This document shows, in pieces, positions 29,475 to 34,734 of a DNA stretch of 42,047 nt (the stretch's first letter is position 1; each line of letters begins with the position of its first letter). The notes beneath the pieces were generated by a model. That model saw only the letters and a program-made list of their open reading frames with translations, made no database searches and was not told the origin of the DNA. This DNA is from a virus: the IMG/VR virus record IMGVR_UViG_3300025000_000207, positions 1 through 42,047 of that record. One strand, 5' to 3'. The translations under genes and the position numbers were made by a program.

Positions 29475-30488
29475 CTATGCCGACTTCAACACCATCATCT
29501 GTGGCCGCGAATCCAACGGACTCACCACATCCGTCTTCCGAGGCAGCAGATGCAGATAAATCATCGTCGTTTTCACATCGTTATGTCCCAGCAATTCCTG
29601 TAGCCGCCTCAATGCCACCTCATGCGACCCTTCCGCGTTCTCCAGCCAGTGCGTCGCAAACGAATGCCGAAACGTATGGCAACTCGCCTTCTTGTTAATT
29701 CTGGCCGCCAAAATCGCCCGCCGCACCCGTTTCTGCACCGCCGTCTTATGCACATGGTAAAGTTTTCCAAGCCATTCCGGTTCCGCCACCTTTTTCCCTA
29801 TTCGTTCCCGCACCGGACCCGCCGCCGGGAACAACCAAAACCATTCCCACGAATAGGGAGCGTTCGGAAATTTCCGGTCCAGCCGGCCAGGAAGCGAAAC
29901 TGGAATGTTTTTTTCCGCGTAGTCTCGCTGCACATCGCCCAGCCAGCGCAAATGCCTCTCCATCGGCGCCACCAACAGTTCAGGCAGCGGCACAACCCGG
30001 TCCTTATCCCCCTTACCCTCACGCACCATGACCATGCGGCGATCCAGGTCGACGTCCTTAACCCGTAACCGGCATGTCTCTTCCAGGCGCAACCCGCAGC
30101 CATACATGAACGCACCCCACAACCATCCCGCACCATTCAATCGGTCCAGTACCCGCCACGCCTCCTGTCGGCTGAATACCTCCGGCAACCGCTGCGGTCG
30201 CCGAGACCGAAGAAAAGAAACATCTCCCAACTCCATCTTCAAAACCCGCTTGTAAAAATAAATAATCGCGCAAAGAGCCTGCTTCTGTGTCGCCGCCGAA
30301 ACATTGTCCTGCGTCACTATCCGCGTCAAAAACTGCCCCAATTTTTCCTCATGCGTTTCAGCGTCGTTCCCGGAAAGGAATACAGCATATTTCGCAAGCC
30401 ATTCCATATACGCCTTGATTGTCCACCGGCTCTTGCGCTGGAGGCGCATGCACTCATACATCCGCCTGTCCGCTTCCGCCTTTGTCAT
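29475..30488 (-). CDS. Integron-integrase-like tyrosine recombinase, 337 aa
   Basis: ATG 30488 follows GGAAAAGGGAGGTGTGGC. The active-site residues are visible: Arg134 (GCGLRLEETCRLRVKDVDL), Lys near 159-161 (VREGKGDKDRV), His271 and Arg274 (CHTFRHSFATHW), His302 (LQELLGHNDVKTT) and Tyr311 (TTMIYLHLLPR). Between boxes it has SLPGRLDRKFPNAPYSWEWF, WLFPAAG and the terminal VVSPLDSR. These correspond to the extra IntI segment and GVRSPLD-type end of integron integrases. A 5-residue insert follows FATHWLEN. It would integrate the phage. No cassette array is seen. Being beside an inverted-arm site strengthens the integrase role. Confidence 0.85.
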   Translation of the reverse strand: MTKAEADRRMYECMRLQRKSRWTIKAYMEWLAKYAVFLSGNDAETHEEKLGQFLTRIVTQDNVSAATQKQALCAIIYFYKRVLKMELGDVSFLRSRRPQRLPEVFSRQEAWRVLDRLNGAGWLWGAFMYGCGLRLEETCRLRVKDVDLDRRMVMVREGKGDKDRVVPLPELLVAPMERHLRWLGDVQRDYAEKNIPVSLPGRLDRKFPNAPYSWEWFWLFPAAGPVRERIGKKVAEPEWLGKLYHVHKTAVQKRVRRAILAARINKKASCHTFRHSFATHWLENAEGSHEVALRRLQELLGHNDVKTTMIYLHLLPRKTDVVSPLDSRPQMMVLKSA

Positions 30489-30563: not shown

Positions 30564-31472
30564 TTATAATCCGAATCGCGCTGACAACCTCAACCATGCC
30601 TCAGCGTGGCATCTTGGCACCTGTCCATTTCCAAGGGCTTGCAGTCTGTCCACCCGAGCGGCCACCCCATGAGCCACTCGACCCATTCCGGGTTCAACTG
30701 TCCACCAGTTTTCTCGCCAGAACGCAGCAATGCCCCCGGTATATTGGCGTGCTTCACTTGGGAAGGCGGCAGCGTTGAGTTCTTCGAGTCGTTGACTGTC
30801 GGTGTCGGCCACTTCGTCACCGCCGTTCTCAAGATCAACCCGCCAGCCCTGCCGGAGCATCCCGGCCCGCCAGTTCCGTCCGATTTCGTAGGAGTCGGCC
30901 ACGTCAAATAACTCCGCGCCGATCTCTCCTTGCCCTTGTCCGCTCCCCGCATGTGGTGCGCCTTCGTATTGCTCGCCAGAGGTGTAGGCAACAATCCATA
31001 TTCTGTCTCGTTGGTGCGGCGCTCCCACGTCAACCGCTCCAACCACTCCCCATTCCGCATCGTACCCCATCGCGGCCAGGTCTCCAAGAACACGACCAAG
31101 CCCCCGAACAGTGAGCATTGGCGAGTTTTCCACAAAGCAGAAGGTTGGTCGTACTTCACTGATGATTCGGGCCATTTCCACCCACAACCCAGACCGTGCG
31201 CCGTCAAGTCCTTCACCGGTTCCGGCTGCGGAAATGTCCTGGCAGGGGAAACCGCCAGAAACCACGTCAACAATGCCTCGCCAAGGTCTGCCGTCAAATG
31301 TGCAAACGTCATCCCAAATTGGGAAAGGCGGCAAAAATCCGTCATTTTGTCGGGCGGCAAGTACGCTTGCGGCGTAGGGATTCCGCTCAACAGCGCAGAC
31401 GGTGCGCCATCCAAGCAGTTTACCGCCAAGTATTCCTCCACCAGCACCCGCGAATAAAGCCAACTCATTCAA
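30564..31472 (-). CDS. C5-cytosine DNA methyltransferase, 302 aa
   Basis: ATG 31472 follows AAGGGGGTAGATTTG. Motif I is LFAGAGGG (residues 6-13), motif IV is GGFPCQDIS with catalytic Cys77, motif VI is FVENSP (113-118), motif VIII is QRDRIWIVA, and motif X is LGNGQVP near the C-terminus. The specificity region is short. It lacks a restriction partner in the neighbourhood, so it probably protects phage DNA from host enzymes. Its DNA is also open in another frame for almost its full length (30590-31468). The gene is upstream of the integrase and downstream of a DUF5131-like gene. Confidence 0.9.
   Translation of the reverse strand: MNELALFAGAGGGILGGKLLGWRTVCAVERNPYAASVLAARQNDGFLPPFPIWDDVCTFDGRPWRGIVDVVSGGFPCQDISAAGTGEGLDGARSGLWVEMARIISEVRPTFCFVENSPMLTVRGLGRVLGDLAAMGYDAEWGVVGAVDVGAPHQRDRIWIVAYTSGEQYEGAPHAGSGQGQGEIGAELFDVADSYEIGRNWRAGMLRQGWRVDLENGGDEVADTDSQRLEELNAAAFPSEARQYTGGIAAFWRENWWTVEPGMGRVAHGVAARVDRLQALGNGQVPRCHAEAWLRLSARFGL
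30590..31468 (-). CDS. Overlapping 292-aa frame inside the methyltransferase gene
   Basis: ATG 31468 starts four bases after the methyltransferase ATG and may share its RBS; the frame is open for 293 codons. The translation has PTPQAYLPPDKMTDFCRLSQ, FGMTFAHLTADLGEALLTWF, WPTPTVNDSK, LNPEWVEWLMGWPLGWTDCK. I remember WPTPT...LNPxWVEWLMGxPxGWTD proteins as a frequent unnamed group in phage-derived databases. Comparison shows those motifs are the other-frame reading of methyltransferase phrases: WPTPTVND overlays VADTDSQR and GWTDCKPLEMD overlays RVDRLQALGNG. It is either true overprinting or a recurrent annotation artefact. Confidence 0.4.
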   Translation of the reverse strand: MSWLYSRVLVEEYLAVNCLDGAPSALLSGIPTPQAYLPPDKMTDFCRLSQFGMTFAHLTADLGEALLTWFLAVSPARTFPQPEPVKDLTAHGLGCGWKWPESSVKYDQPSALWKTRQCSLFGGLVVFLETWPRWGTMRNGEWLERLTWERRTNETEYGLLPTPLASNTKAHHMRGADKGKERSARSYLTWPTPTKSDGTGGPGCSGRAGGLILRTAVTKWPTPTVNDSKNSTLPPSQVKHANIPGALLRSGEKTGGQLNPEWVEWLMGWPLGWTDCKPLEMDRCQDATLRHG

Positions 31473-31597
31473 ATCTACCCCCTTAAAACCTTATGGCCTA
31501 TCGGCCAAGCGCGATTCGGATTCTAACCAAACATTCGACCTGACCGATGAACCCGGCAGGTCAATTCAAGCCGTTATCTCCATCTCCGCCCCCCTAC

Positions 31598-32542
31598 CTA
31601 TTTATCCCAAGGAAGGGCGTCGTAGGTACGGCCATCAAGCATGCGCCCCTTTTTTGGCAGGCTCATGTTGGCATTGACCAGAGGAACCGACTCGAAAGCC
31701 GAGACGTGGGGCCGGCTGCCCCACTGTTTGAAAAAAAAGGGAACCCCTGCATAGAAACACTGATCCCTCACCAGCCTGACCCAATCAGGGCTCATGGGCC
31801 GGGCCTTAGATCCGGATTCCCCGCCCAGGAGAACGGCGTGAATACTGGTAGCCCACGGGGAGATAGTTATCCGGCCGAGCATTGGATCGATGGAAATGAA
31901 CCGATGTCCCGGTACGGCCAGCAGGTCGGGAACACGTTCGTCGGCTCGCCGTTGGTCCTCCGTGGTAACGCCGTGCCACACATGGCTCAGCGCCCCGGAC
32001 ACCCCGCGCCGCTGCGCCGGCGGCAGCCTGTGATGTTGTTCCACCGCAAGATCGACGATGCGATCACTGACCCCTCCCTCGTCCCGCCAGGACCGCCAGT
32101 AGTCCGCCATGCGCCGCGAACGTTTGGTGAGGACCAGGAACGTATGCCGCCAGCACAGGGCCATGCCGACATAGGCGCGGTCGCGGAAATCGTCGGGCAC
32201 ATCGTCGTGAAACAGGTCATTCCACACGGCCCATACGGTCGGTTTTTTTGTGCGCAACGGCAGATCGAGGTTGTCCTCACGGAGCAGATTTTTTCCATCA
32301 AACCCCGTCACTTGCTGCCAGCCGCAGGCCGTTCCGTCTGCAATACTTCCATTCGCACTGCATTCCATCACAACAGCCCGTGCGCGACGCCGGATATTTT
32401 CGTTCGGGTGATTCGTTCGCATCAGCGTTTCCGCTTCGCTCCAGCAGTGGTCGCATCCCGGAGACACCTTCGCGCAACCCTCCACAAGCTTCCAACTCCT
32501 CATCCAGTATCGACCGTTACCAATCATTTCCGGTGAAATCAT
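31598..32542 (-). CDS. Gp37/Gp68-family (DUF5131) Cys-cluster protein, 314 aa
   Basis: ATG 32542 follows GCGGGAGGTTGGAAA and overlaps the upstream stop (ATGA). The signature CAKVSPGCDHCWSEAE gives Cys23, Cys30, Cys33 near the N-terminus. KKPTVWAVWNDLFHDDVPDD and HTFLVLTKRSRRM follow, then ISIDPMLGRI and FFFKQWG. These mark the phage Gp37/Gp68 family (DUF5131), a radical-SAM-like fold of unknown reaction. Enzymatic function is unproven. Its position two genes from a DNA methyltransferase hints at nucleic-acid modification or RNA-related chemistry, but that is inference only. Confidence 0.85.
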   Translation of the reverse strand: MISPEMIGNGRYWMRSWKLVEGCAKVSPGCDHCWSEAETLMRTNHPNENIRRRARAVVMECSANGSIADGTACGWQQVTGFDGKNLLREDNLDLPLRTKKPTVWAVWNDLFHDDVPDDFRDRAYVGMALCWRHTFLVLTKRSRRMADYWRSWRDEGGVSDRIVDLAVEQHHRLPPAQRRGVSGALSHVWHGVTTEDQRRADERVPDLLAVPGHRFISIDPMLGRITISPWATSIHAVLLGGESGSKARPMSPDWVRLVRDQCFYAGVPFFFKQWGSRPHVSAFESVPLVNANMSLPKKGRMLDGRTYDALPWDK

Positions 32543-34323: not shown

Positions 34324-34629
34324 CTACGAGCCGCCAGGGGTTCCGTGAAGCTTTCGCAACTGCAAAACGCCCTTGAGGGCGGTTACCGCCGTATCCATCA
34401 ATTCCGCGATCTGGCCATGCTCGCCAAACATATCGCCCGCAAGCAGCGCCTCCCGATACTCGTCCCATTCTCCCGTCACCGCTTCGAACACCAGGCCCTC
34501 GTCGTATTCGCGCCAATCCCCATGCTGGCGCACGCTCTGTTTAATCTGCTCGAACAACTCCTCCAGCAACGGCCGAAACTCGGCAAAATCCACCGCCGCC
34601 CGCGGGCCATTACAATGATCCAGTTCCAT
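34324..34629 (-). CDS. Hypothetical small protein, 101 aa
   Basis: ATG 34629 follows AGGGAGAGACGAC. The product is acidic and helical (AVDFAEFRPLLEELFEQIKQ, FEAVTGEWDEYREALLAG). Its second half is a helix pair ending in a flexible LRKLHGTPGGS. No motif is recognised. A strong hairpin separates it from the SPFH gene, and a terminator lies beyond it. Confidence 0.55.
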   Translation of the reverse strand: MELDHCNGPRAAVDFAEFRPLLEELFEQIKQSVRQHGDWREYDEGLVFEAVTGEWDEYREALLAGDMFGEHGQIAELMDTAVTALKGVLQLRKLHGTPGGS

Positions 34630-34678
34630 GTCGTCTCTCCCTGGCTGCTCATCAGCGCCGGGCCACCACGCCCGCCGG

Positions 34679-34710
34679 ATTATTCCGCCGTTTGCGACCG
34701 GCGGAATAAT
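34679..34710. other. Intergenic hairpin, 12-bp stem
   Basis: ATTATTCCGCCG pairs perfectly with CGGCGGAATAAT around 8 bases, between the SPFH gene and the 34629 gene. No T-run follows on either strand. It is probably an RNA-stability structure or operator. Confidence 0.6.
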
Positions 34711-34734
34711 TTCGCATCGTTAACCGCCTTGTGG

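Follow-up and report, generated by a model that had tools for sequence, protein, structure and literature searches.

M.EcoHK31I (YGGCCR) is a C5 methyltransferase (MTase) made of two polypeptides, and M.EaeI is also of this type. Lee, Kam and Shaw are said to have found in 1995 that the coding sequence of the small chain of M.EcoHK31I is nested in the large-chain gene in another reading frame. Few long overlaps on one strand are known whose two protein products are both strongly selected. The large chain of M.EcoHK31I carries motifs I-VIII and X and the smaller polypeptide motif IX alone, while M.AquI is split after motif VIII into an alpha chain with motifs I-VIII and a beta chain with motifs IX-X (PMC3404938). 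A different kind of hidden reading frame is found in ShiLan, where an HNH gene is inserted in a phage methylase (PMC11855218).

The window analysed here is a stretch of viral DNA of 42,047 nucleotides (IMG/VR record IMGVR_UViG_3300025000_000207). It contains a C5-cytosine MTase gene (chain 1) with a second reading frame (ALT) lying almost entirely within it (Table 1). In motif layout, the pair resembles M.EcoHK31I in that a motif IX-like element, recognised as a sequence motif, is placed on a second polypeptide, the rest being on the large one, and in that the coding sequence of this second polypeptide is nested in the first gene in another frame. The phage pair differs from M.EcoHK31I in several respects: ALT spans nearly the whole gene from a start located 4 nt behind that of chain 1, the catalytic domain is overprinted by the N-terminal half of ALT, and the pair is phage-borne and widespread. 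As in ShiLan, a phage methylase gene conceals a second gene in a different frame; in ShiLan, however, this is a mobile homing-endonuclease insertion and no part of the enzyme. The locus is flanked directly on its 5' side by a gene for a DUF5131 protein (phrog_2045; 31598-32542, minus strand) and directly on its 3' side by a tyrosine recombinase gene (29475-30488, minus strand). Farther away, a Hammerhead_II ribozyme (RF02276, 59.5 bits; 34639-34717, minus strand) is located between an ORF matching phrog_200 'lipoprotein' and the ORF 34324-34629 (minus strand).

Table 1. Features of the overlapping MTase/ALT locus; positions are those of the window.
Feature	Sequence	Position	Strand	Remark
Chain 1, C5-cytosine DNA methyltransferase		30564..31472	(-)	302 aa, TTG start, motifs I-VIII and X-like end
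ALT (second chain)		30590..31468	(-)	292 aa, ATG start, +1 frame inside chain 1
Shine-Dalgarno-like stretch	AAGGGGG	31478..31484	(-)	5' of both starts; from sequence
Chain 1 motif I	LFAGAGGG	31434..31457	(-)	
Chain 1 motif IV	GGFPCQDI	31233..31256	(-)	with catalytic cysteine
Chain 1 motif VI	FVENSPML	31113..31136	(-)	
Chain 1 motif VIII	GAPHQRDRIWIV	30990..31025	(-)	in split relatives chain 1 ends 4-50 residues beyond
Chain 1 X-like end	GRVAHGVAARVDRLQALGNGQVP	30615..30683	(-)	
ALT conserved N-terminus	MSWLYSRVLVEEY	31430..31468	(-)	
ALT middle block	LWKTRQCSLFGGLVVFLETWPRWGTMRNGE	31046..31135	(-)	overlaps chain 1 motif VI-VIII region
ALT (L/W)PTP repeats	GLLPTPLAS, WPTPTKSDG, WPTPTVNDS	30785..30997	(-)	
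ALT motif IX-like element	LNPEWVEWLMGWPLGWTD	30644..30697	(-)	same motif in frame in single-chain MTases

Chain 1 matches phrog_363 (1e-67) and the C5-MTase profile PF00145 (2e-30), the latter with profile positions matched only up to 174 of 324. Motifs I, IV (PCQ), VI (EN) and VIII of the C5-cytosine MTases are all present. The full IX and X region is lacking: no LTPRE-like motif IX occurs in chain 1 of the window, and an X-like LGNGQVP is present. Among relatives, the stretch between motif VIII and the X-like end of chain 1 comprises 28-188 residues (median 90) and looks hydrophilic and repetitive by eye. The motif that is absent from the MTase frame (I-VIII, X) has a counterpart in the other one, since the ALT motif LNPEWVEWLMGWPLGW resembles motif IX of C5 MTases. 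ALT itself matches phrog_1008 (4e-34). This family, which spans ALT of the window, ALT of K1ind1 and of L407, and the in-frame C-terminal module of the single-chain MTase L262, is the ALT family itself; the label DNA methyltransferase is its sole annotation and the overlapping second chain is nowhere marked. In our alignment of ALT sequences (alignment A1), M1 and S6 are invariant and S2, W3, L4, L9 and V10 nearly so. A Pfam search of ALT proteins returned nothing significant, a sequence search of the PDB with the ALT alignment gave chance matches only (E-values of 0.26 and above), and the AlphaFold2 models of ALT from the window and from L412 are of low confidence (mean pLDDT 57, pTM 0.25).

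The initial annotation had pointed to a near full-length second frame on the MTase, and this frame is indeed open over 292 codons from an ATG located 4 nt past the MTase start. The correspondences between frames that it had listed also hold: VADTD of chain 1 (30798-30812) reads as WPTPT in the other frame (30785-30811), and GWTDCKPLEMD of ALT overlaps RVDRLQALGNG of chain 1. As for its suggestion that a ribosome-binding site may be shared, both starts lie behind the same AAGGGGG; it had assigned an ATG to the MTase, which in the window starts with TTG, the ATG being that of ALT. Among relatives, the ATG of ALT is kept in 115 of 117 loci, including loci where the MTase start codon has moved. 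In these 117 loci, the codon 4 nt 5' of this ATG is ATG (54), GTG (25), TTG (16) or a non-start codon (22). In the last 22 loci, chain 1 has an upstream in-frame start, often at -18, and in several of them an AAGGAG serving as SD for ALT falls within chain 1. By a weak criterion, an SD-like stretch of at least 4 bases precedes the ALT ATG in 84/92 and 16/22 loci of the relatives. Finally, five loci (L107, L117, L139, L147, L149) encode the M(S/A)WLIS N-terminus of ALT some 27 nt farther upstream, using other codons of chain 1.

An open frame inside a conserved gene may in principle be an artefact, the second frame being kept open and similar merely by amino-acid conservation of the MTase, codon bias or base composition. 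Conservation of the MTase does indeed make the second frame more similar among loci; the +2 frame likewise exceeds shuffled sequences in identity. For this reason, excess identity over shuffles was dropped as sole evidence and frame-specific tests were used. Viral contigs were scanned with each of the two proteins, which yielded 120 unique loci, and synonymous codons were shuffled within each MTase gene, codon counts being preserved, to give the null model. For the window alone, 5.1 stops are expected in the ALT frame and none is observed; none of 200 shuffles was free of stops. The initial annotation had also asked for a lack of stops beyond chance among homologs, and such stops are nearly absent: over 115 unique loci, 1 is observed for 571 expected. 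The result is similar in the 73 loci fetched via the MTase rather than via the second frame (1 versus 366 expected) and in the N-terminal half of ALT alone (1 versus 319), and a separate E. coli-phage clade has none in the jointly open region versus 209 expected. In contrast, no depletion is seen in the third (+2) frame (2013 stops observed versus 1637 expected). Inside ALT, L145 has one stop, and L069, L030, L040 and L139 have a stop in chain 1; sequencing errors are possible in each case. A single in-frame chain 1 stop with ALT intact is seen in L183, L213, L208, L178 and L069, the stop being just past motif VIII in L183 and L213.

Substitutions were then compared between the two frames. Transversions at reference position 1 were counted as ALT-changing relative to ALT-silent, and intervals were obtained by bootstrapping over loci. 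The resulting ratio is 0.563 [0.535-0.594] in the MTase, whereas genes adjacent to it in these loci give 1.17 [1.00-1.35], these intervals being approximate because the loci are related by descent. It is 0.56 for the N-terminal and 0.48 for the C-terminal half of ALT, and 0.50 [0.43-0.57] in the separate E. coli-phage clade. At 4-fold sites, third-base identity reaches 0.61 versus 0.41 in neighbour genes, for 55-65% protein identity. As an illustration, Met267 of ALT is kept while the overlapping chain 1 residue varies between D, N and H (GAT/AAT/CAT). Thus, synonymous changes of the MTase do not freely disrupt the second frame, and ALT-silent changes are favoured here only, not in the neighbour genes. 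Stop depletion and purifying selection, two marks of an overprinted gene, are both found in the second frame.

Further evidence comes from C5 MTases that have a motif IX of their own. In a set composed of phage records and of genomes also holding ALT loci, mostly the latter, 10 chain-1 sequences with an LTPRE-type motif IX lack the ALT motif, and their ALT frame is interrupted by 5-24 stops. The ALT motif accompanies 25 of 25 chain-1 sequences with an RVDRLxALGN end, although most of these come from genomes chosen for ALT and the independent ones are the phage records L487-L490. An origin of the open frame in codon bias is rejected by stop depletion, by 4-fold-site identity, by the transversion ratios and by the E. 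coli-phage clade, and the artefact as a whole is barely credible; it would take an unmodelled constraint that imitates the stop depletion, the transversion ratios and the E. coli-phage clade result all at once. Of the two possibilities that had been left side by side at the outset, two truly coding frames in many phages or an artefact of a systematic kind, stop depletion and selection on ALT favour the former. As judged from sequence comparisons, the second frame is real and coding.

The natural variety of these loci bears on what ALT may do. Three arrangements are found, whose tallies are not frequencies, as some contigs entered the count twice and the loci had been retrieved with related queries (for most of them, ALT or this MTase). 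In the arrangement of the window (337 loci), the X-like end is in frame on chain 1 and the ALT motif is in the +1 frame. The register is fixed: in 331 of 338 loci, the distance from the end model of chain 1 to the start of the ALT motif is +7 nt. In the second arrangement (53 loci, actinophage by inference), single-chain MTases carry the ALT motif inside the catalytic ORF; in one case, L370, the PF00145 match runs over profile positions 6-313 (of 324) and so includes motifs IX-X. These single-chain phage enzymes (for example L262 and L370) share with ALT an L(S/T/N)PxFxEWLMG placed after motif VIII, with LPTP repeats as well in L262. They differ from the window pair in having one polypeptide and one frame, with motif X next in the same chain; in the window, the motif IX module lies in a different frame from the catalytic domain. 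In the third arrangement (17 loci, +1 frame), chain 1 extends only 4-50 residues beyond motif VIII, while motif IX and a GNGQVP-type motif X are both found on the ALT ORF. L418 resembles this arrangement, but in the other frame. Similarly, in the Mycobacterium phages Flux and Dylan chain 1 is truncated and ALT continues alone, the two being annotated as two DNA methylases. The question raised initially of whether ALT ever occurs without an intact MTase is thereby answered: it does, the MTase frame being truncated after motif VIII. Such split relatives, which retain ALT where the chain 1 C-terminus is lost, also argue against an artefact. L226, L230 and most of L407-L423 are split as M.AquI is, after motif VIII, with IX and X on the second chain; they differ from M.AquI in that the N-terminal part of the beta-like chain overlaps the catalytic domain in another frame. 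The window is not of this type, since its X-like end stays on chain 1.

Some loci depart from these three layouts. L411 (187-1662) is an intermediate form, with a chain 1 devoid of the motif X end while ALT carries one. L214 contains two tandem MTases, each with its own ALT-frame match. In L326, the ALT ORF ends at 1499 and the C-terminal parts of both proteins are found in a separate downstream ORF (2135-2986), a layout that suggests an insertion.

Taken with the motif IX-like end, the fused and split natural arrangements point to ALT as a part of the same MTase; ALT is most likely a subunit of the enzyme to which chain 1 belongs. For the C-terminal part of ALT, this assignment draws chiefly on a single short motif, together with the fused and split relatives. 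An ALT that is a real protein with a function apart from methylation, antirestriction or regulatory for instance, and that merely overprints the MTase, would account for an N-terminal half having no relative found outside the overlap yet selected in its own right, and for the lack of a Pfam match. We consider this unlikely, as the ALT motif and repeats are in frame in single-chain MTases and as ALT carries motifs IX and X in the split forms. Alternatively, a programmed frameshift beyond motif VIII might lead ribosomes into the second frame and thereby yield an MTase variant that ends in the ALT C-terminus. Although the ALT-type module fused in frame after motif VIII in single-chain phage MTases is what such a mechanism might lead one to expect, ALT is equipped with a conserved ATG and SD of its own and with a selected N-terminal half, for which a downstream frameshift has no need, and we hold this explanation to be very improbable.

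We therefore come back to an enzyme made of two chains and propose, with a probability of about 0.8 based on sequence comparisons, that the locus encodes two overlapping-frame proteins which together form one C5-cytosine DNA methyltransferase. Chain 1 and ALT would both be translated from one mRNA, at adjacent starts, and would then pair, ALT completing the small (DNA-binding) domain. Chain 1 would supply catalysis (motifs I-VIII) together with motif X, presumably resulting in active methylation. ALT would supply motif IX, behind a variable region of LPTP repeats, and possibly target recognition too, its N-terminal half being read across the bases of the chain 1 catalytic domain. A broader proposal can only be put forward tentatively. 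The two subunits, encoded nearly end to end in overlapping frames, might represent an old and widespread phage and prophage family of several phyla, in which overprinting of the catalytic domain gave rise to the domain carried by the second subunit. This domain may determine the specificity for the target, so that enzyme and specificity partner would evolve in the same bases.

The MTase/ALT pair is found in phages and prophages of Proteobacteria, Firmicutes, Bacteroides, Verrucomicrobia and others. It is commonly mis-annotated, with one frame dropped or with both named methyltransferase; E. coli prophage MTases, for example, show the same pair and RefSeq annotates the cytosine MTase only. Gp56 of Paenibacillus phage Shelly (L003, 1815-2519) is annotated as 'g55 internal gene', showing that the overlap was noticed by its annotators. 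Apart from this record, no earlier description of this phage overlap was found in the literature searched, and the near-full-length overlap, its wide occurrence and the motif-X-swapped forms appear to be new. The overlap reaches close to 300 codons. Should ALT prove to be the missing subunit, a phage MTase of which only chain 1 has been cloned may seem inactive. Moreover, the fused, split and overlapped forms provide a testable series for the origin of an overlap inside one enzyme.
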